From: a virus
Strand: one strand, 5' to 3'
Virus record (IMG/VR): IMGVR_UViG_3300048597_000092
Span: 1-35,644 of that record
DNA length: 35,644 nucleotides
Shown here in pieces: positions 17,832 through 34,804 of this stretch. Under the pieces are notes generated by a model. The model did no database searches and had not been told where the DNA came from. It saw nothing but the letters and a program-made list of their open reading frames with translations. The first letter of the stretch is position 1; every line of letters begins with the position of its first letter. Both the position numbers and the translations under genes were made by a program.

Positions 17832-18410
17832 GTGAACATCCCCAGATCCATCACGAGCGGCGACTCGTTGGTGTGGAACGACCCGCCCGGCGTGGATGGC
17901 CAGGGCAACCCGATCGCGTCGACGGGAGGCTGGGTTCTCACCTACTTCCTGCGGTTCAACGCCAGCGGCGAGGGCGCCACGGTGATCGGCACCGCGGATG
18001 GTGTGGGCGGCTGGGACTTCGAGATCAGCGGTACCACCAGCGCAGCGTTCGACGCTGGGGTGTGGAGCTGGATGGCACGGGCGACGAACGGCGCGCAGGC
18101 GATGACGCGCGGACGGGGGACGCTGCAGGTTCTGCCGTCGCTGAGCTACAGCTCCACCCCGGCGGCGTTCGATGGCCGCAGCGACGCGGAGAAGGACCTC
18201 GAGGCGGTGCAGACCGCGATCCGGACGATCGTGGCTGGCGGGGTGAGCCAGTACGCGATCGGGAGCCGGCAGGTAACGAAGCTCGATCTCTCGGCGCTCT
18301 ACAAGCGGGAGGCCTACCTGAAGGGCATCGTCGCCCGGGAGAAGGCGGCGGAGAAGATCGCCGCCGGCATGGGTGACCCGCGGAACCTGTTCGTGAGGTT
18401 CGGGCGATGA
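17832..18410 (+). CDS. gpW-like head-tail joining protein with extra N-terminal domain
   Basis: A 192-residue protein with a GTG start at 17832 preceded by AAGG. The C-terminal 70 residues resemble lambda gpW and related joining proteins that sit beside the portal: DAEKDLEAVQTAIRTIVAGG, then VSQYAIGSRQVTKLDLSALY, and LKGIVAREKAAEKIA. The first 110 residues form a separate beta-rich domain (SGDSLVWNDPPGVDG, WVLTYFLRFNASG, VWSWMARATNG) that lambda gpW lacks; comparable N-terminal domains exist in related phage proteins upstream of portals. It closes the capsid after packaging. It overlaps the portal start by ATGA. Confidence 0.7.
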   Translation: MNIPRSITSGDSLVWNDPPGVDGQGNPIASTGGWVLTYFLRFNASGEGATVIGTADGVGGWDFEISGTTSAAFDAGVWSWMARATNGAQAMTRGRGTLQVLPSLSYSSTPAAFDGRSDAEKDLEAVQTAIRTIVAGGVSQYAIGSRQVTKLDLSALYKREAYLKGIVAREKAAEKIAAGMGDPRNLFVRFGR

Positions 18411-19987
18411 ACGACACCGAGAAGCAGCTGCAGGAGAGGCAGCTTCGGGCGCTCCGGCTGCAGATGAAGCGGCTGTACGAGGGGGCGAAGTTCGATCGGC
18501 TCACCGCCGACTGGCTGGCTGGCGGCACCAGCGCCGACGCGGAGATCCGCAGCAGCATGGCCCGGCTGCGGAACCGCGCGCGGCAGGTGATCCGCGATTC
18601 GGATCACGCCAAGGCGGCGAAGCGCATGATCGTGAACAACGTGATCGGCACCGGCGTGCGGATGCAGGCCCAGCTGCTGATGGCTCGCTCGCGGGATGGG
18701 AAGCCCCGGCTGGACAAGACGAAGAACGCGACGATCGAGCGGAAGTTCGCCGCCTGGTGTGCCGCCGAGGTGTGCCACACCGGGGGGACGCTGGCGTTTC
18801 AGGACATCGAGGAGCAGGTGGTGGGGGCGCCGGCGGAAAGCGGCGAGGTGTTCGTGCGGCTGGTGCCGGAGGCCTTCGGCGGCGGGCGCATTCCCCTGGC
18901 GCTGGAGCTGATCGAGGCCGACCAGCTGGACGAGACGGTGGACGGCTACGCCAGTGTGCCCGGGCAGATGGTGCCCGGCGGCGAGTGGCGGCTGGGGGTG
19001 CATGTGAACGAGTGGGGGCGGCCGATCGAATACGCCTTCCTCACCCGCCACCCGGGCGACGTGCGTGGCGGCGGGCCCATGGCGGGCCAGCGGGTGATCG
19101 TGCCGGCGGAGCAGATCATCCACTGCTTCATCCCCGAGCGCCCCGGGCAGACGCGCGGGGTGACGTGGTTTGCGTCGGCCCTGAAGCAGCTTCACCACCT
19201 GGTGGGCTACCAGGAGGCGGAGGTGGTGCGAGCCCGGGCGGCGTCGCAGCTGATGGGCTTCATCGTCACCGACAGTGGCGCCGGCGAGGAGCTGGGCGAG
19301 GAGGTGGTCGACGGCGAGCACGTCACCACGTTCGAGGCGGGGGTCTACAAGACCCTGTTCGCTGGGCAGCGGGTGGAGGTGCCCGACCTGAAGGCGCCGA
19401 ACGGGCAGTTCGAACCCTTCGTGCGGGTGATGCTGCGGGCCATGGCCGCCGGCTTGGGGGTGAGCTACGAGAGCATCAGCCGGGACTTCAGCCAGACGAA
19501 CTACAGCTCCAGCCGGCTGGCACTGCTGGAGGATCGGGAGAACTGGCGGGCGCTGCAGCAGCGGACCATCCGCACCTTCCACCAGCGAGTCTTCCGCGCC
19601 TGGCTGCGAGCGGCCGTGAGCGTGGGCGAGGTGTCGCTGCCGGGCTACCAGCAGGAGCCGGAGCGGTATGAGACGGCGATCCGGTGGGTGGCCCGGGGCT
19701 GGGAGTGGGTGGATCCGGAGAAGGAGGGCAAGGCCTACCGCGACGCAGTGCGCGACGGCTTCATGACCCAGGCCGAGGTGGTGATGTCCCGCGGCGCGGA
19801 CTACCACGAGCTGATCGAGCAGCGGGCCGCCGAGCTCGAGGAGCAGGAGCGGCTGGGCCTGGTGTTCGACACCAACCCGTCGAAGGTGGACCAGCGCGGG
19901 GCGGACAACACCCCGCCGGCGCCCGAGCCGCCACCGGCCGAGGATCCGCCGCCTGATCCGCCATCTGACCCGCCGCCGGCGGAGTGA
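18407..19987 (+). CDS. Portal protein, lambda type
   Basis: A 526-residue protein from ATG 18407 (ATGA overlap). It shows the order of the lambda portal family: an N-terminal helix (LRALRLQMKRLYEGAKFDRL), IRSSMARLRNRARQVIRDSD, NNVIGTGVRMQAQ, the wing region with GEVFVRLVPE and IEADQLDE, PGQTRGVTWFASALKQL, the stem region, and GLGVSYESISRDFSQTNYSS followed by ALLEDRENWRALQ. Twelve copies form the ring at the capsid vertex through which DNA passes. The C-terminus is a Pro/Asp-rich tail (about 500-526) beyond the usual crown, likely flexible. It precedes the protease-capsid gene. Confidence 0.92.
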   Translation: MNDTEKQLQERQLRALRLQMKRLYEGAKFDRLTADWLAGGTSADAEIRSSMARLRNRARQVIRDSDHAKAAKRMIVNNVIGTGVRMQAQLLMARSRDGKPRLDKTKNATIERKFAAWCAAEVCHTGGTLAFQDIEEQVVGAPAESGEVFVRLVPEAFGGGRIPLALELIEADQLDETVDGYASVPGQMVPGGEWRLGVHVNEWGRPIEYAFLTRHPGDVRGGGPMAGQRVIVPAEQIIHCFIPERPGQTRGVTWFASALKQLHHLVGYQEAEVVRARAASQLMGFIVTDSGAGEELGEEVVDGEHVTTFEAGVYKTLFAGQRVEVPDLKAPNGQFEPFVRVMLRAMAAGLGVSYESISRDFSQTNYSSSRLALLEDRENWRALQQRTIRTFHQRVFRAWLRAAVSVGEVSLPGYQQEPERYETAIRWVARGWEWVDPEKEGKAYRDAVRDGFMTQAEVVMSRGADYHELIEQRAAELEEQERLGLVFDTNPSKVDQRGADNTPPAPEPPPAEDPPPDPPSDPPPAE

Positions 19988-20031
19988 TCCATCCGTCTGC
20001 TGAGAGTGGCGAGCGGCTGTAGCATGGGTGG

Positions 20032-20046
20032 GAATGGTTCTCATTC
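20032..20046. promoter_or_regulatory. GAAYG-N5-CAYTC dyad, copy B
   Basis: GAATG-GTTCT-CATTC overlaps the ATG at 20034 of the protease-capsid gene. TAGCAT, a possible -10, ends 6 bp before it. It is the most symmetrical of the three copies (5-bp perfect arms). If functional it acts at the gene start, so either the true start is downstream or the site is read as RNA. Confidence 0.35.
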
Positions 20047-21881
20047 CCTTGCCTCACACTGCCCACGACCTGCGCGACATCGCCGGCAAGGAGCTTCGCC
20101 GCTTCGAGCCGACCGAGTTCCGCGCCCAGGACGAGGAGCGCACGATCGAGTTTCCCTTCTCCAGCGAGCTGCCGGTCGCCCGGTGGTTCGGTGAGGAGAT
20201 TCTCGATCATTCGCGTGAGGCGGTGAACCTGTCGCGTCTGAATGACGGCGCCCCGCTGTTGTTCAACCACGACCCCGACCGCGTGATCGGTGTGGTGGAG
20301 CGCGCATGGGTGGACGAGGAGAAGCGGCGCGGCATGGCCCGGGTCCGGTTCTCCCGCAACGACTTCGCCCAGCAGGTGCTGGCCGACATCACCGACGGGA
20401 TTCTCCGGAACGTGAGCGTCGGCTATGCGATCGGCGATGCAGAGAACCGTGGGGATTCGATCGTCGTCACGTCGTGGGAACCCCACGAGGTGTCGGTGGT
20501 CTCGATTCCTGCAGACCCCACTGTCGGCATCGGGCGATCGCTCGACGCTGGCGTCCCGGCCCCGGCCAACACCCCCACCCCCTCTCCCAAGATGGACGAG
20601 AACACTCCCAACCTCGACGAGGTGCGGGCTCAGGCCATGGCCGAAGAGCGCGCCCGCGTCGCCAGCATCACCGACCTTTGCCGCACCCACAAGGTGGAGG
20701 ACAAGGCCCAGAACTTCATCGAGCGCGGCGCCAGCGTCACCGAGGCCCAGGCCGAAGTGCTCGCCGAGCTCGCCCAACGCGCCAAGGCGCCCCAGCACGC
20801 CGCCCCCGCCCAGCGCGCGGTGCCCATCGCCGGCGCCGCCCCGATGTCCGCCGACATCGGCATGAGCGACAAGGAGATCCGCTCCTACAGCTTCCTGCGG
20901 GCCATGCGCGCGCAGCTGATGCCCAACGACCCGACCGTGCGGGAGGAGGCCGGCTTCGAGCGTGAGGTGTCCCAGGCGGTGGCCCAGCGGATGGGCATCT
21001 CGCCCAAGGGGATGCTGATCGCCCACGACGTGCTCAGCGCCCGGACACTGACCGTCGGCAGCCCCACGTCCGCCGGCGATCTGGTGTTCCCCGATGCCCG
21101 GCCGGAGAGCTTCATTGAGCTCCTGCGGAAGCGGAACGTCCTGACCAGCCTCGGCGTGCAGATGCTCACCGGCCTGGTGGGTCCTGTGCCGATCCCTCGC
21201 CAGACCGGTGCTGCCACCGCCTACTGGGTGGGTGAAGCGGTGGAAGCCACCGAGTCCGAGATGACGGTGGATCAGGTCAACCTGACCCCCAAGACGCTCA
21301 GCGCCTGGACCCGCTTCAGCCGGCTGCTGATGATGCAGTCCAGCCTCGATGTGGAGACCCTGGTCCGCCAGGACCTGGTGACCGTGATGGCGCTGGAGAT
21401 GGCCCGCGCCGCGCTCTACGGCACCGGCTCCAGCTCCCAGCCCCAGGGCCTGAAGTTCATCACCGGCATCAACACCGAGGACTTCGGCGCCGCGCAGCCG
21501 ACCTACGCCGAGCTGGTGAGCATGGAGACGAAGATCGCCGCCGACGATGCCGACATCGGCGCCATGGGCTACGCCACCAACGCCACCGTGTTCGGTGGGT
21601 TCAAGACCACGGAGAAGGCGGCCAACACCGCCCAGTTCGTACTCGAGCCCGGCGGCACGGTGAACAGCTACGGCGTGGTTCGCTCCAACCAGGTGGAATC
21701 CGGCGACGTGTTCTTCGGGGTCTGGAACCAGATGCTGATCGGCATGTGGGGCGCCCTGGATCTGCAGGTCAACCCCTACTCGGAAGACAAGGCCGGAAAC
21801 ATCCGGGTGGTGACTCACCAATCCTGTGATGTGGCGGTGCGCCATCCCGAGTCCTTCTGCCGCGGCAACAACACCCTCTGA
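20034..21881 (+). CDS. Fused prohead protease and major capsid protein (HK97 fold)
   Basis: A 615-residue protein from ATG 20034; a GTG at 20028 adds two residues. Residues 30-170 are an S78-type prohead protease: His79 in LLFNHDPDRVIG, Ser128 in RNVSVGYAIG, and the closing strand HEVSVVSIPADP. A helical, charged region (about 185-275: RAQAMAEERARVASITDLCR and QAEVLAELAQRAKAP) takes the place of the scaffold. The capsid domain (about 280-615) has FLRAMRAQLMPND, TVGSPTSAGDLVFPD, PRQTGAATAYWVGEA, LTPKTLSAWTRFSRLLM and a P-domain ending VAVRHPESFCRG. Protease, scaffold and shell are thus one chain that must be cut during maturation. No separate scaffold or protease gene is present. Confidence 0.9.
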   Translation: MVLIPLPHTAHDLRDIAGKELRRFEPTEFRAQDEERTIEFPFSSELPVARWFGEEILDHSREAVNLSRLNDGAPLLFNHDPDRVIGVVERAWVDEEKRRGMARVRFSRNDFAQQVLADITDGILRNVSVGYAIGDAENRGDSIVVTSWEPHEVSVVSIPADPTVGIGRSLDAGVPAPANTPTPSPKMDENTPNLDEVRAQAMAEERARVASITDLCRTHKVEDKAQNFIERGASVTEAQAEVLAELAQRAKAPQHAAPAQRAVPIAGAAPMSADIGMSDKEIRSYSFLRAMRAQLMPNDPTVREEAGFEREVSQAVAQRMGISPKGMLIAHDVLSARTLTVGSPTSAGDLVFPDARPESFIELLRKRNVLTSLGVQMLTGLVGPVPIPRQTGAATAYWVGEAVEATESEMTVDQVNLTPKTLSAWTRFSRLLMMQSSLDVETLVRQDLVTVMALEMARAALYGTGSSSQPQGLKFITGINTEDFGAAQPTYAELVSMETKIAADDADIGAMGYATNATVFGGFKTTEKAANTAQFVLEPGGTVNSYGVVRSNQVESGDVFFGVWNQMLIGMWGALDLQVNPYSEDKAGNIRVVTHQSCDVAVRHPESFCRGNNTL

Positions 21882-21892
21882 ACGGTGACGTG

Positions 21893-22096
21893 ATGCTGAT
21901 CGAGATCCTCCGAGACACCTCCATCGCCGGGAAGGCTGCCCTGATCGGTGAGGTGGTGGATGCTGACGAACCCACAGCCCGGTACTTCCTGGCTACGGGG
22001 AAGGCGCGGAAGGTGATCGATCAGCCCCCGGCGATGGAGCCGGCGCCTGAGGCGCGAAAGCCTCGCCCCCGTCGTAACCCATCCGCCAAGGATTGA
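21893..22096 (+). CDS. Small head protein, FI-position
   Basis: A 67-residue protein from ATG 21893 (a GTG at 21890 is in frame). It begins MLIEILRDTSIAGKAALIGE, then VVDADEPTARYFLATGKARK, and ends in a Pro/Arg/Lys-rich tail. The pattern of a short beta unit with a G-x-V-V-D turn followed by a helix ending in G-K-A-R is common in small proteins encoded after capsid genes of lambda-like phages. A packaging-accessory or decoration role is plausible from position. The basic tail could bind DNA. Confidence 0.6.
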   Translation: MLIEILRDTSIAGKAALIGEVVDADEPTARYFLATGKARKVIDQPPAMEPAPEARKPRPRRNPSAKD

Positions 22097-22101
22097 CCGC
22101 C

Positions 22102-22479
22102 ATGATGCACCAGTACGCGCTGGAGAAACTCCAGCACTTCACCCTCCTCGCCACCACCACGATCACCGCCATCGGTGACCAGACCGGTGTGGATCTCGCC
22201 GGCTACGAAGGCGACATCCAGATCATCCTCAACGCCACCGCCGCCGGCTCTGGCGCCACCTTCGACTGCCGGATCGAGGAAGCCGACACCCTGGGCGGCA
22301 GCTACACCGCCGTCACCGGTGGTGGCTTCACCCAGATCGGCAACGCCGCTGCGAAGCAGGTGATCACCCTGAACTCCGACAACCTGAAGCGGTTCATCCG
22401 GTTCAGCGTGACGGCCGAGGGTGGCACCGCCTCGAGCGCCATCACCGTGAACGGCTACGGCCTGCTGAAGTACGGCTGA
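22102..22479 (+). CDS. Virion structural protein, beta-rich
   Basis: A 125-residue protein from ATG 22102; ATG 22105 is also possible. It is almost entirely beta, with alternating small and hydrophobic residues: LEKLQHFTLLATTTITAIGDQ, IQIILNATAAGSGATFDCRI, SYTAVTGGGFTQIGN, and ITLNSDNLKRFIRFSVTAEG, ending NGYGLLKYG. Similar proteins with a GTYTDV-type strand followed by a final L-K-R-F/Y-I/V-R strand lie after capsid genes in many phages and are thought to be decoration or neck parts. It is coupled by TGATG to the connector-fusion gene. Confidence 0.65.
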   Translation: MMHQYALEKLQHFTLLATTTITAIGDQTGVDLAGYEGDIQIILNATAAGSGATFDCRIEEADTLGGSYTAVTGGGFTQIGNAAAKQVITLNSDNLKRFIRFSVTAEGGTASSAITVNGYGLLKYG

Positions 22480-25400
22480 TGATCGAGGAGGATCTCACGG
22501 TCTTCCTTGCCGATTTCGGCGTCAGCATCACCGCTGGCGCCGTTTCTGGTTTGTGCCTCCTCGACATGCCGGGCGAGGTGGTGTTCGACGGCGTGCGGGA
22601 AACGTACACCGGGGCGCTGTCGACGATGTACAGCATCACCTGCCGGACGGATGAGTTCGGGCAGCTGGGCTACGGCGATTCGGTGACGGTGGATGGCGAG
22701 GTGTACACCGTGCAGGAGGCGCCGCTGTTGATCACCGATGGGGTGTTCTGTCGGATCAACTTGGAGAGAAGTGCCGTGGTTCAGTCTTCGTTGCCGGCGG
22801 TGTCGGTTGCCGTGTCGCCCAGCTCGACCGCAGAGGACGGCACCACCAACCTGGTGTTCACCTTCACCAGGACGCTCACCGCCGGAACGCTGTCGGTGAA
22901 CTACAGCATCGGCGGCACCGCGACGAACGGCACCGACTACGCCACGATTGGCACTTCGGTCACGATCCCTTCTGGCCAATCCTCAGGTACCGTCACGATC
23001 GATCCGACCACGGACGCAACCCTCGAGGGCAACGAGACTGTGATCCTGACGCTGGCTCCTGATGCCAGCTACACCATCGGCTCGCCTAACAGTGCGACCG
23101 GTCGGATCATGAACGACGAGGCAGGCACCAACGTGTTCGCGTTCGCCAGCGGGGATACCGTCATCGTCAGCGAGGCCGCCGGGGTGGCCGAGGTGGCGGT
23201 CATCCGTTCGGGCTCGACCGCAGCAGCGGCGACCTTGGAGTACACCGTCACGGCGATTCCTGCCGGCGCCACGGCCGGCGCCGATTACACGGTCCCGACC
23301 GAGCTTGGAGCGAACCTGGGCCAGGTCGTGTTTGGTGTCAGCCAAGCCTCTCAGGTGATCCAGGTGCCGGTCGTCAACGACGGCAGCACCGAAGGCAACG
23401 AGCTGTTCGCGGTGGCGATCCAGAACCCCAGCAGCGGCAGCCTGGGCGCCCCCAGGACGGCGCGGGTGCTGGTCGTGGACAACGACGGTGCGGCCCGGGT
23501 GTCCTACCTCTCAGCTGACCTGGAGGTGGCCCACGATGCCGGCGATCTCACGGTCACCCTGATTCGGGCCGGCTCCAGCGCATTTTCTGCCTCTGTGCTG
23601 CTGACGGCTGTTGCGGGTACGGCCGAGGCGGGCGTCCACTTCACTGCCACGTCCGAAACGGTGACCTTTCCGATCGGGAATGTCGTGCAGACGGTCAACG
23701 TGCCGATCTTGGCGACGGCGGCGCCGTTCAACTTCGCGGACTTCACGCTGACCATCGACAGCCCGACCGGGGCGTCGATCGAAGGCAGCGCCACCGCCGC
23801 GGTGCGGATCCTTGGCCCTGGTGTCGACTTGGGCTCCCTGAGTCGGTCGGTGTTCGTTGACGGCCTCACCGAACCGACCACGTTCGACTGGATCCCCGGC
23901 GATCCCGACACGATGCTGGTGGCACAGAAGCGCGGGCAGGTGCGGGTCGTCGAAGCCGGTGTCCTGCGCACGGAACCGCTGGTTGATCGAGCGTCGATCG
24001 TCAACATCGCCAACGATCGCGGCTTGATCGGCATGGCGATCCACCCGGATTTCCCCGCCAGCCCCTACGTCTACATCGGCTATAACTACGATCCACCGGA
24101 AACGATCGGCGCATCCGGTAACTCTGCGCCTGACGGGAACGGCAACCGGCCCGTGCGCGTCGAGCGGCTGACGGTCAACCCTGCGACCCTGCTGGCCACT
24201 GATTCCGTCGTCCTGGTTGGCACGAACAGCACCTGGGCCTTTACCAGCCGCCCTGACCTCAACTCCACGGGCGACCTCGGGATCCTGCCTTCCGGCATCG
24301 TCAACGGCACGACGATCACGGCATCCCCCGAGGACATCAGCACCGGCTACCAGGACAACAGCCCCGGGCAGAGCGGAACCCAGAACGAGAACATCCGTGA
24401 TTACATCGCCTGCGATTCGTTATCCCACGGTGTCGGCAACCTGGAGTTCGGCCCTGATGGCTACCTTTACCTGGCGGTGGGCGATGGCACGTCCTACAAC
24501 TTCATCGATGACCGTGCCGTCAGGGTGCAGGACATCGCCAACCTGTCGGGCAAGCTGCTGCGCTTCGACCCGCTGACGGGTGCTGGCGTGCCGAGCAACC
24601 CTTACTACGACGAGGACAGCGGGACGCCTGCTGGCACCAGCAACCAGTCCAAGGTCTTCTACTACGGCCTGCGCAACCCTTATCGCTTCACCTTCGATCC
24701 TGTCACCGAGCTGCCGGTGCTCGGCGACGTTGGCTATACGCAGCGCGAGAGCATCTACACGGGCCCACCAGGATCCAACTTCGGCTGGCCTTACGTCGAA
24801 GGCGACATCACGACACCCGGCTACGGAGAGCTCCCGCAGGCCGTCGCTTTCTTCGCCAATGGCAACATCAACGCAGGCAGCCCCAACCCGCTGCCGAATG
24901 TGCCGCCCCTGCGTGCCCTCACCCACGGCTCCCCCGACAGCTTTGAGTCGCTGACGATGGGACAGTTCTTCACGAACAACTCTTTCACGTATGCAGACCT
25001 GATTGATGGTCGAGTGTTCGCCGCCACCCTGGATGAAAACCGCGAAATCGTTAGCACCACGCAGTTCGATAGCGGTGTCAACTATCTAACCGATATTCGC
25101 ACAGGCCCTGACGGCAATATCTACGCCTGTCAAATTTACGGTCCCGGTTTTGGTCCCGGCAGAATTGTTCGCTGGGTTCCAGAAGACACGGGGCCGCCAC
25201 CCGCTGTTTCCGCCACCCTGTATCTGCCGTTCGCCTCCGACCTTCTGGATGCCAGCGGAAATAATTTTACAAACTTACACACAGCGAATCCCCCGACATT
25301 TGATCCTCTTGCCGAAACTCCAATAGGGTTCGGCGCAGCCGTATTTAACGGCACAAGTCAACACCTTGATTTCGGTGAATATCCTGAGTTCTTTAACCCC

Positions 25401-25865
25401 GGAACAGGCGATTTCTGTATAGCCTTCTGGGCACTGATGGATCCTATCGACAATCCCAACAGCTATCCAGCCGTCATTAGTAAGGGCTCCTATCAATCCT
25501 CAGCCGGAGCATGGGTTGTCTTTTTCGATCGGCCTAACAGCACAGCGATAAACTTTTCATACGGGAACCCATGGGTAGAACAATTAAAGTCGAATACTAC
25601 CGCGCACCCCAGCGGCGTGTTCCGCCACAACTACATACAGCGAAGCGGCAATACAATGACACTTCGTGTAAACAATGTTCTAGTCGATACACACGATGTA
25701 ACTGGGGTTGATTTCACCAGCAGCCACATATTGCTAGTAGGCAGAAGCCTTGTCAGTGATAACTGGAAAGGCGCTATCCGTGATCTGGTCTACATCGTAG
25801 GCGGCATCCTGACGCCAGAGCAGGTCACCGCGCTGCAAACTGCACCGTTTTCGGAGCTGCCTTAA
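22479..25865 (+). CDS. Head-tail connector fused to Calx-beta, sugar-dehydrogenase propeller and LamG
   Basis: An uninterrupted 1128-residue frame from ATG 22479 (TGATG coupling). Residues 1-97 match a lambda FII-like connector (EEDLTVFLADFGVSI, VVFDGVRETYTG, DSVTVDGEVYTVQEAPLL), the whole length of that protein. Three Calx-beta domains follow (about 105-215, 216-338, 339-447), with markers such as GTATNGTDY, TLEGNETVILTL and VVDND. Residues about 455-902 are a glucose/sorbosone dehydrogenase propeller: RGLIGMAIHPDFPAS, SHGVGNLEFGPDGYLYLAVG (His650), YYGLRNPYRFTFDP (Arg732-Asn733) and NFGWPYVEG. Residues about 913-1120 are a LamG lectin domain (GAAVFNGTSQHLDFG, FCIAFWALMD, RVNNVLVDTHDV). GC drops across LamG. 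It should form the neck ring with long glycan-binding arms. Confidence 0.85.
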   Translation: MIEEDLTVFLADFGVSITAGAVSGLCLLDMPGEVVFDGVRETYTGALSTMYSITCRTDEFGQLGYGDSVTVDGEVYTVQEAPLLITDGVFCRINLERSAVVQSSLPAVSVAVSPSSTAEDGTTNLVFTFTRTLTAGTLSVNYSIGGTATNGTDYATIGTSVTIPSGQSSGTVTIDPTTDATLEGNETVILTLAPDASYTIGSPNSATGRIMNDEAGTNVFAFASGDTVIVSEAAGVAEVAVIRSGSTAAAATLEYTVTAIPAGATAGADYTVPTELGANLGQVVFGVSQASQVIQVPVVNDGSTEGNELFAVAIQNPSSGSLGAPRTARVLVVDNDGAARVSYLSADLEVAHDAGDLTVTLIRAGSSAFSASVLLTAVAGTAEAGVHFTATSETVTFPIGNVVQTVNVPILATAAPFNFADFTLTIDSPTGASIEGSATAAVRILGPGVDLGSLSRSVFVDGLTEPTTFDWIPGDPDTMLVAQKRGQVRVVEAGVLRTEPLVDRASIVNIANDRGLIGMAIHPDFPASPYVYIGYNYDPPETIGASGNSAPDGNGNRPVRVERLTVNPATLLATDSVVLVGTNSTWAFTSRPDLNSTGDLGILPSGIVNGTTITASPEDISTGYQDNSPGQSGTQNENIRDYIACDSLSHGVGNLEFGPDGYLYLAVGDGTSYNFIDDRAVRVQDIANLSGKLLRFDPLTGAGVPSNPYYDEDSGTPAGTSNQSKVFYYGLRNPYRFTFDPVTELPVLGDVGYTQRESIYTGPPGSNFGWPYVEGDITTPGYGELPQAVAFFANGNINAGSPNPLPNVPPLRALTHGSPDSFESLTMGQFFTNNSFTYADLIDGRVFAATLDENREIVSTTQFDSGVNYLTDIRTGPDGNIYACQIYGPGFGPGRIVRWVPEDTGPPPAVSATLYLPFASDLLDASGNNFTNLHTANPPTFDPLAETPIGFGAAVFNGTSQHLDFGEYPEFFNPGTGDFCIAFWALMDPIDNPNSYPAVISKGSYQSSAGAWVVFFDRPNSTAINFSYGNPWVEQLKSNTTAHPSGVFRHNYIQRSGNTMTLRVNNVLVDTHDVTGVDFTSSHILLVGRSLVSDNWKGAIRDLVYIVGGILTPEQVTALQTAPFSELP

Positions 25866-26183: not shown

Positions 26184-26612
26184 ATGGTGATGAAACGCGA
26201 ATCCATCCTCGAGGCGATCCGCACCGCGCTGGCAGGAACGGTGCAGGTGGGCAGCAGGATCTACCGCAGCCGGGTGGAGGCGATTGCCCGGAATGAGGCG
26301 CCGGCGCTGATCGTCGAGCCCACCGACGACAACGCGCGTCAGGACCCGGTGAGCCAGTGCTGGATCGACTGGTCGCTGGGGGTGGATGTGATCGTGCACA
26401 CCCGCGGGCAGGTGCCGGAGCAGATGTCGGCCGCGATCCAGGTGGACGTGCACGAGAAGATCATGGCCGACCGCACCCTGGGCGGGCTGGCGATGGATGT
26501 GTGGCCGGCGCGGGTGCAGTACCTGCGGGACCAGGCGGACCAGACGGCAGGCTGGGCGATCATGAGCTACAGCGTCAGGTACCGCACGCGGGTGGCTGAT
26601 CTGGAGTCATAG
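26184..26612 (+). CDS. Tail terminator, lambda U-like
   Basis: A 142-residue protein from ATG 26184; ATG 26190 is also possible. It opens with a helix (KRESILEAIRTALAGTVQVG), then SRIYRSRVEAIARNEAPALI, a strand with WIDWSLGVDVIVHTRGQ, a helix (SAAIQVDVHEKIMADRTLGG) and closing strands (AGWAIMSYSVRYRTRVADLE). This alpha/beta order and the position before the tail tube match tail terminator proteins, which cap the tail tube and bind the connector. It is followed by a 54-bp gap containing dyad copy C. Confidence 0.7.
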   Translation: MVMKRESILEAIRTALAGTVQVGSRIYRSRVEAIARNEAPALIVEPTDDNARQDPVSQCWIDWSLGVDVIVHTRGQVPEQMSAAIQVDVHEKIMADRTLGGLAMDVWPARVQYLRDQADQTAGWAIMSYSVRYRTRVADLES

Positions 26613-26666: not shown

Positions 26667-26885
26667 GTGAGCAAGAAGGCGCCCGCGCCACCTCCGAAGC
26701 TCCCGAAGGCCGGTGGCAGCTACGTGCTGAGCGCCGACGGGAAGGCCTGGCTCCCTGAGCCCACCACCAGCACCGACCCCACCGCCCTGATCGAGGCCCC
26801 GACCGATGGCACTTTGGCGCAACCGAATGATCTTGGCGAAAGCCGAGACGACCTACGGGACGAGCGCAGCCCCGACCGGGACTGA
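26667..26885 (+). CDS. Small Pro-rich protein before the tail tube
   Basis: A 72-residue protein with a GTG start at 26667. It is Pro/Ala/Lys-rich at first (SKKAPAPPPKLPKAGGSYVL), has one beta-like unit (SYVLSADGKAWLPEPTTST), and ends in a charged stretch that overlaps the first 80 nt of the tail tube gene. The overlap makes the exact role of the C-terminus uncertain. No family is recognised. Its place suggests a small tail or tail-assembly component. Confidence 0.5.
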   Translation: MSKKAPAPPPKLPKAGGSYVLSADGKAWLPEPTTSTDPTALIEAPTDGTLAQPNDLGESRDDLRDERSPDRD

Positions 26886-27747
26886 CGCGATCCGGGTCGG
26901 CACCGACCTGAACCTAGCGCCGCTCCAGATGGAGCTGGTGGACCGGGAGCTGCTGTACGGCTGGATCGGGAACATGCCGCGAGCCGTGGTGCAGCGGCTG
27001 GCGCAGATCAGCTTCAGCTTTGAGCTCGCCGGCTCGGGAACGGCCGGCACGGCCCCGAAGCCGGGTGTGTTCCTGCGGGCCGCCGGCTACAGCCAGACAA
27101 TCGTGGCCGACACCAGCGTTACCTACGCTCCGATCGGCACTGGCTACGAGGGCATCACCATCAACTGCCGCCACGGCGGGAAGCAGCACCTCCTGACCGG
27201 CGTGCGGGGGAATGTGAGCTTCAACGGCTTCACGGTGAACGGCCTGCCGATGCTGCAGTTTGAGGGCCTGGGCATCTACAACACCCCGAGCGATCAGGCC
27301 GATCCGACGCCCACCTACGACAACCAGGCGGACGCCGTGGTGGTCAACTCCGACAACACCCCCACGGTGAGCGTCGGCGGCTTCGCGGCCTGCATGGAGA
27401 GCTTCACCTTCGGCGCCGGCCGCTCGCCGATCTTCCGCCAGCTGGCCGGCTGCAGCAAGCAGATTCGCATCGACCAGGAGCGGACGCCCGAGGGCGAGAT
27501 CGTGATCGAGACCCCTACCATCACCGCGAAGAACTTCTTCGCCGATGCCGTCGCTCAGACCGCGACGGAGATCGAATGGGTTCACGGCACCACCGCGGGG
27601 AACATCGTCACCTTCAACGCCCCGACCTGCAGCCTGGGTGATCCCACCTACGGCGACAGTGACGGCATCGAGATGCTCACCCTGCCGTTCCGGCCGATCC
27701 CCTCGCTGGATGACGGCTACGACGACCACACCATTGTTTTCACCTGA
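26806..27747 (+). CDS. Major tail tube protein
   Basis: A 313-residue protein from ATG 26806; the opening LWRNRMILAKAETTYGTSAA is typical of tail tube proteins of siphoviruses. It is beta-rich: ELVDRELLYGWIGNMPRAVV, RLAQISFSFELAGSGTAGT, VTYAPIGTGYEGITINCRHG, VRGNVSFNGFTVNGLPML, FTFGAGRSPIFRQL and PTITAKNFFADAVAQTATEI. Copies stack in rings to form the tail tube around the tape measure. There is no Ig-like C-terminal domain as in lambda gpV; the protein ends soon after MLTLPFRPIPSLDDGYDDHT. The stop overlaps the next start by one base. Confidence 0.8.
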   Translation: MALWRNRMILAKAETTYGTSAAPTGTDAIRVGTDLNLAPLQMELVDRELLYGWIGNMPRAVVQRLAQISFSFELAGSGTAGTAPKPGVFLRAAGYSQTIVADTSVTYAPIGTGYEGITINCRHGGKQHLLTGVRGNVSFNGFTVNGLPMLQFEGLGIYNTPSDQADPTPTYDNQADAVVVNSDNTPTVSVGGFAACMESFTFGAGRSPIFRQLAGCSKQIRIDQERTPEGEIVIETPTITAKNFFADAVAQTATEIEWVHGTTAGNIVTFNAPTCSLGDPTYGDSDGIEMLTLPFRPIPSLDDGYDDHTIVFT

Positions 27748-31638: not shown

Positions 31639-33788
31639 GCATCCTCGGCAGCGACCCGTTCGACACGCTCCTGTATCAGCAGGGGCTGATTGGCCCGCCA
31701 CTGGTTGAGGGTGGCGCGAGTGGTGCGGATGATCTGGATGTAGCGCAACGGTCGCTGACGATCGGTGAGGTGGTGCCGATCGTGTTCTGCCGCCGGGTGG
31801 GTGAGATCGGTGGGGTGCTGATCAGTCCACCGGCAAGCGAGGCGCGGTTCGAGAATGACACCAGCAATGCGGTGACCGCCAGCTACCACGTGGTGCTGAG
31901 CGAAGGCCAGCTGCCTGGGATCCAGGTGCGCGATGTGTTCCAGCGGTCGTGCCGGGTGGGGTCGTTCATGCAGACCTACGGGCGTCGTGCTGGGCCGTGG
32001 CTGCCTGGGAACTTCATCGTGCCGAGGGCAGGCTTCACCAAGCCGGAATGCCCGTACTACTGCGGCACCGGCGGCACCTACGAGGACCTGACCACCGGCA
32101 GCTATGTGATCGCTGGTGTGCCCGATGGCGACACCCGATGGGACCGTCAGATCCACCTGTTCTGCCGCGGTGGGATGCAGGTCACCCGGCTGCTGGATGC
32201 CACCTATGGGCCCAGCAACAACGTGGCCGACCTGGTGCTCTACCTGCTGCGGAAGACCAGCCGGATTCCTGAAGCGTTGATTGATCTGGATTCGCTCGAG
32301 GCCGCGGCTGCGTTCACCGATGGGCTGGGCCTGTGGTTCAACGGTGAGCTGAAGGAGTCCACCAACATGGAGGACTTCCTGGCCAGCTACGGGCGGGACT
32401 TCCTGCTGACCAAGACCAAGCGCGACGGGAAGACCGGCGTGCGTCCGCTGCTGCCGGTGACTGCAGAGAACGAGATCGACGTGGGGCCGATTGTGCCGGT
32501 GTACCGGTTCACCGAGAACCACATCATCCCTGGGTCGTTCGAGATCAGCTTCGTCCCGCTGGCAGACCGGAAGCCGTTCGTCGCGCTCATGCTGTGGCGG
32601 CAGCAGCCGACTGACGACATCGGCATCATCCGCACGACCGAGGTGCGCTACGCCGGCACCGCACCTGATGGGCCGTTCGAGCAGCACGACCTGTCGAAGT
32701 TCTGCGCCTCGGAGAACCACGCCGTGAAGGCCGGCGCGTACCGGGTGGCGAAGCGCCGCTACGTGAGCCACACGCTGCGCATCAAGGTGCGCCCCGGGTC
32801 GTTCAACACGACTCTGGCCCAGGGTGATGTGGTGCAGGTGAGGTTGCAGCGGATCGCGTCCAACGCTCCCGCGGGAGAGCACAACTACCTGTACGAGGTG
32901 GACCGGATCGGGAAATCGAGGACGGGTGAGGTGAGCCTCGACCTGATCCACTTCCCGGTGGACGATCAGGGCCGCAGCCTAGTGGCGCTGGATGTTGCTG
33001 CAGCAGTGGGTGGCGGGATCCTGCTGAGCACCGGGAAGAGCGGCACCAGCTGTGATGTGAACAGCAGCACGGACGAGACGGTGCCGGCAGACGACAGCCT
33101 GGACCCGAGCGAATGGGATCTGCCTGGTGATGATGCGTTCGATGTGACGCTGCCTGATACGGACTTCGGCACTGGAGGCTTTGACGATGGTGGTGGTGGC
33201 GATGGTGGCGGCGAAGGCAACCCGAGCGAGCCGCTGGATGATCAGGATGATGCGCCGCCGCATGAAACGACGCCCCCCGGTGAGGTGCCACGGACTGGGG
33301 TGGGACTCAACCCCGGCGCCGGCCCTTGCGGCGGCGATCCGAAAACCGTCAAGTGGTACAAGAACGGCCAGCTCCTCAGCACGCACACCTACCCAGGTGG
33401 TGGTGGCAGCCCGGTCGTCACCTACGAATCTGGGGCATCACGGCCGACTTGGCTTGGCCCAATTCGTGATGCCGTGCCGATCATCACCGACGAAGACACC
33501 GGCGACACTTACACATCGGAGGTTGAGTGTGAAGATGGTAGGCTGTTTGGCCGCCAGAGTTTCGTTCAGCCTGATGTGTTGGAGCGCAGATACATTTTCA
33601 GTTACGACAGGGGCCCCGGCACGCCAACAGAAGACGGAAGATACGTGAGTGTTGGTCGTCCCCCTTACTTTGGGATCGGACCGGACGGGGCCACTCTTAT
33701 ATTTGTGTACGACGGATCAAGATACTTTGTCGGTGCTGGAGGACCTGTTATTGAAAACTTGTCGGTCGATATTGAGCCAACACCATGA
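31635..33788 (+). CDS. Tail tip / host-specificity protein, J-like
   Basis: A 717-residue protein from ATG 31635 (ATGA overlap). The first about 480 residues fit the J/TipJ region: SLTIGEVVPIVFCRRVGEIG, VVLSEGQLPGIQVRDVFQRS, NMEDFLASYGRDFLLTKTKR, GSFEISFVPLADRKP, and AYRVAKRRYVSHTLRIKVRP then TLAQGDVVQVRLQ. An acidic, Gly-rich linker (about 495-560: FGTGGFDDGGGGDGGGEG) leads to a beta-rich C-terminus (TVKWYKNGQLLSTHTYPGGG, then RRYIFSYDRGPGTPTEDGRY) with lower GC in the last 300 bases. The hub and exposed receptor part are thus joined by a flexible linker. It is shorter than lambda J (1132). Confidence 0.75.
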   Translation: MSILGSDPFDTLLYQQGLIGPPLVEGGASGADDLDVAQRSLTIGEVVPIVFCRRVGEIGGVLISPPASEARFENDTSNAVTASYHVVLSEGQLPGIQVRDVFQRSCRVGSFMQTYGRRAGPWLPGNFIVPRAGFTKPECPYYCGTGGTYEDLTTGSYVIAGVPDGDTRWDRQIHLFCRGGMQVTRLLDATYGPSNNVADLVLYLLRKTSRIPEALIDLDSLEAAAAFTDGLGLWFNGELKESTNMEDFLASYGRDFLLTKTKRDGKTGVRPLLPVTAENEIDVGPIVPVYRFTENHIIPGSFEISFVPLADRKPFVALMLWRQQPTDDIGIIRTTEVRYAGTAPDGPFEQHDLSKFCASENHAVKAGAYRVAKRRYVSHTLRIKVRPGSFNTTLAQGDVVQVRLQRIASNAPAGEHNYLYEVDRIGKSRTGEVSLDLIHFPVDDQGRSLVALDVAAAVGGGILLSTGKSGTSCDVNSSTDETVPADDSLDPSEWDLPGDDAFDVTLPDTDFGTGGFDDGGGGDGGGEGNPSEPLDDQDDAPPHETTPPGEVPRTGVGLNPGAGPCGGDPKTVKWYKNGQLLSTHTYPGGGGSPVVTYESGASRPTWLGPIRDAVPIITDEDTGDTYTSEVECEDGRLFGRQSFVQPDVLERRYIFSYDRGPGTPTEDGRYVSVGRPPYFGIGPDGATLIFVYDGSRYFVGAGGPVIENLSVDIEPTP

Positions 33789-34804
33789 CGACATTCCCCG
33801 CGCTCATCCCATCCACCCGCACCTATTCGGCTGGCGAGTATCCGAACACGGCGCATCCGTTGCTGAGCGGTTCGGAGATTCGAGTGCGACACTCCAATAC
33901 CGTGCTCGGCGTGCGGCTGCGTCTGACATTTGTGGCAGTCACGTCGGAGGATCTGCTGGCAGTGCGGAACCACTACAACGGTCGCCGGGGTGGGTTCCTG
34001 CCATTTGCCATCCCTGACGAGATCCTCAGCGGTGTTGAGACGCCGGCCGACTTCACGCCAGCAGAACATCAGTGGCGCTACGCCAGTCGGCCACGGGTGG
34101 TAGACGTGCCCATCGCTGGGGCCACGCCGACGAACCGGCATGACCTAGTGGTGGAGCTGGAGACAGTGCCGCCGGAGAACACGATTGTGGCAGGCGCGCG
34201 AATCACAGTGCAGTCATTACTACAAGCGGGCAGCCCAGATCGTGGGGCACTGATTAGTGCATTCGCCTACATTGAATCAGGGTTGGCGGCGGCGGTGGAT
34301 GAAGCCTATGCGCTAGGCGCGCTGCTGGATGCTGATGTGACGCTTCAGGCTGGGGATGCAACCGCAGAATCGGCTAGCAGCATTGATGTTTCTGCCATTA
34401 CATACACTCAGAGCAGTGTGTTCCCTGGCAACGCGGCTGCAACAAATGCCGGCATGACCAACGGAGTTTTTGCAGAGACCACGCAAACTGGAACCAACAT
34501 CACCGCCCCTGCTTGGGTCCAGATGGATCTGGGCGACGTTTTTCCTGTTGCTACCATCTACGTGGGGACAGACTTTAGCAACACATTGGCCGGGGGCTGG
34601 GGCACTATCTACACCGAAGGCGCGGTCATTGAACACTCTATGGACGCATCAACGTGGACATCTGTCGCCACTGTTGGCACATTCACAACAGGGATCCAGA
34701 CGTTCTCGGTTTCGTTCAACGCAAGATACATAAGAATCCGCAGAGGCACTAATTTTATCTCTGATTACGTTTGCGTCACCGAGTTCTACGCCACCTCGGC
34801 GTAG
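33785..34804 (+). CDS. Tail protein with C-terminal discoidin (F5/8C-like) domain
   Basis: A 339-residue protein from ATG 33785 (ATGA overlap). Residues 1-120 (TFPALIPSTRTYSAGEYPN, then LLAVRNHYNGRRGGFLPFAI) are a tail domain that recurs in the gene at 35263. A middle region (about 150-195) holds a helix (RGALISAFAYIESGLAAAVD). Residues 205-339 look like a discoidin lectin: SSVFPGNAAATNAGMTNGVF, PAWVQMDLGDVFPVATIYVG, AVIEHSMDASTWTSVATVG and FSVSFNARYIRIRRGTN. Discoidin domains bind carbohydrates or lipids, so this is a likely receptor-binding or surface-docking part. GC falls in the lectin part. Confidence 0.7.
   Translation: MTTFPALIPSTRTYSAGEYPNTAHPLLSGSEIRVRHSNTVLGVRLRLTFVAVTSEDLLAVRNHYNGRRGGFLPFAIPDEILSGVETPADFTPAEHQWRYASRPRVVDVPIAGATPTNRHDLVVELETVPPENTIVAGARITVQSLLQAGSPDRGALISAFAYIESGLAAAVDEAYALGALLDADVTLQAGDATAESASSIDVSAITYTQSSVFPGNAAATNAGMTNGVFAETTQTGTNITAPAWVQMDLGDVFPVATIYVGTDFSNTLAGGWGTIYTEGAVIEHSMDASTWTSVATVGTFTTGIQTFSVSFNARYIRIRRGTNFISDYVCVTEFYATSA

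Follow-up and report, generated by a model that had tools for sequence, protein, structure and literature searches.

A head-tail connector gene fused to a three-part adhesin arm in an IMG/VR virus record, and matching of connector tails to fibre N-termini among its relatives

The virus record IMGVR_UViG_3300048597_000092 was analysed over its full 35,644 bases (hereafter, the window), which may be a genome fragment. On its forward strand lies a single frame of 1128 codons (22479-25865), read from the sequence without an internal stop, that joins an FII-type head-tail connector to an adhesin. The connector domain (residues 1-97; 22479-22769) is followed by a joint or short linker (22770-22793), by three Calx-beta domains (PF03160; about residues 106-447; 22794-23819), by a glucose/sorbosone dehydrogenase (GSDH) propeller (PF07995; about residues 454-905; 23838-25193) and by a LamG or concanavalin-like lectin domain (PF13385; about residues 958-1116; 25350-25826). 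Pfam matched the three Calx-beta stretches at E 4e-29, the propeller at E 5e-25 and the C-terminal part, as Laminin_G_3, at E 2e-11; the boundaries of the first and third Calx-beta domains were set by alignment and are approximate. An open frame alone is weak evidence in DNA of ~63% GC, and we take the frame to be real as sequenced because the parts before and after the joint each have homologues. The fused connector-adhesin is a confirmed feature of the record, and the three-part arm in unbroken frame that an earlier note had read from the letters alone is borne out by these matches. G+C at third codon positions (GC3) was 0.86 in the connector, 0.84 in the Calx-beta part and 0.78 to 0.86 across the frame outside the LamG part. 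The LamG part (25200-25865) lay well under the rest of the frame, with GC of 0.47 to 0.55 and GC3 of 0.51, suggesting that this tip was acquired separately.

Residues 12-88 of the connector match Pfam Phage_attach (PF05354; E 9e-5, 23.4 bits, just below the 26-bit cut-off), and the NCBIfam model for head-tail joining protein FII was matched at E 7e-4, also below that model's cut-off. A match to PHROG 24448 spans residues 3-104 (E 1.6e-27). Together these point to membership in the gpFII / Hc1 sequence family, which is significant though sub-threshold in the curated models. An AlphaFold model of residues 1-109 was of moderate confidence (predicted local distance difference test, pLDDT, 64), and its best Foldseek match in the PDB was lambda gpFII (8k37_M; E 5e-4, template-modelling score 0.59). 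The runner-up was 8xow_f, the top lambda gpFII chains scoring E 5e-4 and 7e-4; the R4C stopper came third (E 0.014), and all stoppers other than lambda gpFII had E >0.01. In a full-length model the connector's best blocks reached pLDDT 87-92, against a mean of 44 over the whole chain. The connector is thus predicted to have a stopper fold of the gpFII / Hc1 type, in agreement with the earlier note's assignment of residues 1-97.

The position of the gene points the same way. The order is terminase, head-tail joining protein, portal, protease-capsid fusion, two small genes, connector, tail terminator, tube, chaperones and tape measure; this is lambda-like, with the connector before the tail terminator, as for a gpFII-type stopper. 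All of the following genes are on the forward strand. The portal protein (18407-19987; PF05136, E 9e-94) precedes a fusion of protease and major capsid protein (20028-21881; PF04586 and PF05065) and, just upstream of the connector, a small virion-operon protein (22093-22479; PHROG 5707, E 3e-30). Beyond the fused gene lie a gpU-like tail terminator (26184-26612; PHROG 4204, E 6e-35) and a tail tube protein (26806-27747; PF18906). In isolated-phage searches the nearest cultured relatives by connector were S-LBS1, S-CBS1 and S-CBS3, all from Synechococcus; by analogy the host is probably a cyanobacterium, and the cyanophage setting that the earlier note proposed fits these isolates.

We compared about 150 connector loci, some contigs being counted twice. 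Connector lengths ranged from about 90 to 155 residues, the exception being four tandem duplicates (L117:2164-2808, L120, L121 and L143) with two FII-type copies per frame (216-217 residues) and a fibre-type next gene where one was present. None of the ~150 other related connectors carried a comparable arm. Isolated-phage searches returned standalone connectors only. Among genome contigs, a first scan found no connector and a second found two standalone ones of the same family, in a Planctomycetota metagenome-assembled genome (54% identity) and in Ideonella paludis (33%), both probably prophages or phage contigs. We found no described stopper-adhesin fusion in open-access papers. The earlier note's statement that no connector with such an extension was known therefore holds among these relatives and in that literature.

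The closest connectors, 75-81% identical, are standalone proteins of 113 residues in three IMG/VR contigs (L006-L008), where separate genes of 390, 152 and 303 residues lie between connector and terminator. Window DNA aligned with that of L006 and L007 through the codons for ...INLER and diverged after them: the relatives continue into a tail, ...GSVEIELNGDFL, and a stop, and the window into SAVVQSSLPAVSVAVSPSS. The sequence leaves other connectors at about residue 98, residues 97-106 forming a short linker (SAVVQSSLP), and no word was common to both at the joint. Connector and terminator, the two flanks of the fusion, are both of the L006 lineage (81% and 71% identical, respectively). The arm has a homologue in another IMG/VR contig, 3300032322_001232 (L089), where a standalone 148-residue connector is followed by a 105-residue gene and then by a protein of 1826 residues, in which the Calx-beta/GSDH stretch shares 64% identity with window residues 105-917 over 818 aligned columns. 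This larger protein contains six Calx-beta stretches and, in place of LamG, an NPCBM sugar-binding domain and other C-terminal domains. Since the homologue is a gene of its own in the same locus with another tip, the arm appears to belong to the locus and its tip to be exchangeable. One further viral protein (L090:3020-5860) begins with MPPIYLGSVLISG, as in L089, and goes on into another kind of N-terminal region and then into Calx-beta repeats; this short start peptide seems common to exchangeable cargo. Both contigs were reached only by a Calx-beta scan and a two-sequence profile, and single-sequence scans of IMG/VR with the GSDH part or the LamG part alone found no relatives.

Among the relatives, the interval between connector and terminator is either empty, the terminator starting within about 50 bases, or holds one to several fibre-type genes, as in S-LBS1, S-CBS1 and S-CBS3. 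In this phage group it appears to be a locus of exchangeable fibre genes. For 28 non-redundant loci with a measurable interval, we tallied cargo against a C-terminal tail on the connector: all 11 tailed connectors had cargo, 11 loci had cargo without a tail, and all six cargo-free loci were without a tail. Two loci, L047 and L056, have near-identical connector cores; of the two, one is tailed and comes with a fibre gene of 481 residues, and the other lacks both.

The type of tail went with the type of N-terminus on the next protein. Tails of the form ITTLxGxxLxTL preceded TITGLPNAxxLTGTERVPMDQ, LLLEDGxxLLLE preceded KLSxLTAA...VYxVQ, and DGG preceded an Mtd_N domain (IRRDTAAAWTAANPVLLSGE...KIGDG). 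Likewise DGDF was paired with LFSTLAxxTAxNPVLLEGEVWTEKDASTG, FQIVM with FTPGAANAGT, and FQAGV with LTAADHDGN, a pair also present in the isolate S-LBS1. Over 47 non-redundant tailed loci, tail similarity tracked similarity of the next gene's N-terminus given the connector core (partial Mantel r 0.77, 0/5000 permutations), in a test built on unsupervised similarity among sequences related to each other. Along the next protein, r fell from 0.78 at residues 1-50 to 0.26 at residues 81-130 and 0.20 over the final 70 residues, and the connector core did not track the match (0.21). A drop this sharp within a single gene is not the obvious outcome of simple linkage. These patterns suggest that the connector tail is a docking tag for the N-terminal domain of the next protein. 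The window fusion has neither the tag nor a separate docking domain, both of which the relatives have.

We also examined ten other phages with Mtd_N-type fibre or hyaluronate-lyase genes (L168-L177). In seven of them (phiST, Javan450, PSS2, Nandita, Huffy, Roman and Epa5) the protein directly upstream ended in a DGG tag, although those upstream proteins were of other kinds, among them a tail endopeptidase (Javan450) and small proteins (Nandita, phiST). The tag was absent from P-RSM6, S-SSM5 and Ranunculus, in which 75-230 bases separate the Mtd_N-type gene from the one before it. Across 1102 gene neighbours in the loci compared, DGG end and Mtd_N start occurred jointly in 20, the tag only in 8, Mtd_N only in 28 and neither in 1046, a descriptive tally since these loci overlap those where the pattern was first noticed. 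The KLSQLTAA N-terminal domain had no match in isolated phages. The TITGLPNA domain matched one other phage, MW202545, over its first 31 residues, and the protein upstream of it had no matching tag, which counts against the generality of that type of tag.

We regard it as probable, though well short of assured, that the window gene arose as a fusion of an FII-type stopper with a neck adhesin in an exchangeable fibre locus; the separate fibre genes and matched connector tails of the relatives would explain its origin. In the relatives, the short, strand-like C-terminal tag of the connector would be the docking site for a separate fibre encoded by the neighbouring gene, through the fibre's matching N-terminal domain, and the tail would hold that domain at the terminator side of the ring. 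In the window phage, tag, docking domain and stop codon are all missing, and translation would simply run on from connector into adhesin, giving the covalent version of the same mounting. In lambda, the stopper ring is made up of six gpFII copies, with the gpFII C-terminal loop at the terminator side, contacting gpU (PMC10721106). By analogy, a ring of six connectors would carry six neck arms of about 1030 residues each, with a Calx-beta stalk, a propeller of sugar-oxidoreductase type and a LamG tip presumably pointing outward. Display at the virion neck would follow because the arm is covalently joined to the connector; assembly into virions, arm number and host binding are likewise predictions. 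More generally, we lean slightly towards a tag code in which siphophages, mostly uncultured, mount swappable neck fibres by stopper tags matching fibre N-termini, with DGG serving other mounts elsewhere and the window representing the covalent form, with six enzyme-lectin arms.

Several observations weigh against these proposals. The fusion was seen once, in one record, its exact joint being found in no other viral contig of a set from which near-identical records may have been absent. The full-length model is uninformative beyond the connector, its distal part being of low confidence. Taken alone, the association of tails with cargo is weak (Fisher p 0.055, among related loci), and since neighbouring stretches of DNA often move as one piece, linkage could account for part of the tail-fibre matching. 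Since the C-terminal loop of gpFII contacts gpU, the arm must exit the joint without blocking tail attachment. Finally, the neck-fibre module or tip of cyanophage A-1(L) did not bind host cells (PMC10966104), and therefore a neck position need not imply a role in binding.

Faulty sequencing or assembly, or a rare defective variant, might explain a single record: the real phage would have two genes, and a stretch with the stop codon would have been lost from the record. The fusion is indeed a singleton beside ~150 unfused relatives, and about 1.6 kb would be missing relative to L089. However, the frame is exact across the joint and for about 1030 codons beyond it, GC3 agrees between the connector and Calx-beta parts, both flanks are of the L006 lineage and no common word lies at the joint, so that we consider such an error improbable. 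We rejected two simpler readings: two adjoining genes misread as one, as the record has no stop, and a chimera of two unrelated phages, as both flanks come from one lineage. We also give little credence to the idea that the fused frame yields two products, with an internal start or proteolysis freeing the adhesin so that only part of the connectors would be armed. An in-frame GTG does lie at the joint (22776) with GGAG nine bases ahead (22763), and phage structural proteins are often processed. That GGAG, however, stems from conserved connector codons and is present in unfused relatives too, the product it would free is without the start peptide of the L089 type, and a promoter scan of the region found no promoter-like site, nothing suggesting a separate adhesin transcript. 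With no stop, every full translation bears the arm.

The tail-fibre matching might instead be linkage only, with tail and fibre N-terminus swapped as one block without contact and the fibres mounted at another site such as the tail tip. The two segments adjoin, and phage modules are exchanged as blocks. We judge this less likely than docking, though more of a contender than the readings above. Against it, the match drops within one fibre gene (0.78 to 0.26) and is not shared by the connector core (0.21). Moreover, the DGG tag is paired with Mtd_N on unrelated upstream proteins in other phages, and the window fusion itself places such cargo on a connector. The fusion is 'Rosetta stone' evidence that separate fibre genes beside a connector mount on it, and the tail/N-terminus matching over 47 loci names a candidate contact for neck-fibre attachment in siphophages. 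For TP901-1, a 2023 study stated that the precise molecular attachment of neck fibres was not known (PMC10747895). Fusion and tail matching, if true, would together offer a rule for predicting the position of a phage fibre from sequence.

The earlier note had proposed a new class of neck appendage. Neck fibres are already known, namely T4 whiskers, the neck passage structure (NPS) of TP901-1 and 936 phages, XM1 spikes and those of A-1(L), and the ones covered by the cited papers are separate proteins carried by a collar or neck ring (PMC10966104, PMC6669499, PMC10491603, PMC10747895); what appears to be new is the covalent link of a neck-type appendage to the stopper. The window protein resembles the lambda gpFII / Hc1 stopper family (PF05354; 1K0H, 8K37) in its fold match, its conserved core and its gene position between capsid and terminator, but gpFII ends at residue 117 in the gpU-contacting loop (PMC10721106) and the window protein has about 1030 residues more. 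The NPS of lactococcal TP901-1 and 936 phages are likewise accessory, proposed neck fibres ending in carbohydrate-binding modules (PMC6669499, PMC10747895), but they are separate proteins with an N-terminal collar domain of their own, whereas the window arm is part of the stopper chain. Cyanophage A-1(L) shares a cyanobacterial host and neck fibres with a distal carbohydrate-binding module; unlike the window phage it is a myophage, with five gp82/81/80 fibres held non-covalently on pentadecameric gp5 (PMC10966104). The siphophages S-LBS1, S-CBS1 and S-CBS3 have the same gene order, a homologous connector and adjoining fibre genes, but their connectors are standalone and tailed (111-141 residues), their fibre genes separate and their cargo without Calx-beta or GSDH domains. 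L089 comes closest in cargo, with its homologous adhesin in the same locus, yet encodes it as a separate gene.

The domains of the arm suggest what it may do. In the GSDH alignment, His650 pairs with His144 of soluble glucose dehydrogenase and Arg732-Asn733 with its Arg-Asn pair, so that the propeller retains the His and Arg-Asn at catalytic or pyrroloquinoline quinone (PQQ) positions. GSDH-type matches are also given by non-catalytic propellers such as hedgehog-interacting protein, and the propeller may bind or oxidise sugars. The Calx-beta modules plausibly form a stalk, and LamG would be a ligand-binding tip, as is typical of that domain. Our best guess is that the arm holds the virion at a polysaccharide-rich host surface. 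A 201-residue protein of the T4-like cyanophage S-CRM01, which infects Synechococcus (L005:4695-5300, SCRM01_123c), includes a segment that shares 60.6% identity with the arm's first Calx-beta domain. Elsewhere in the window, a tail gene at 33785-34804 encodes a galactose-binding-like domain of F5/8 type C, which is a second candidate for host binding.

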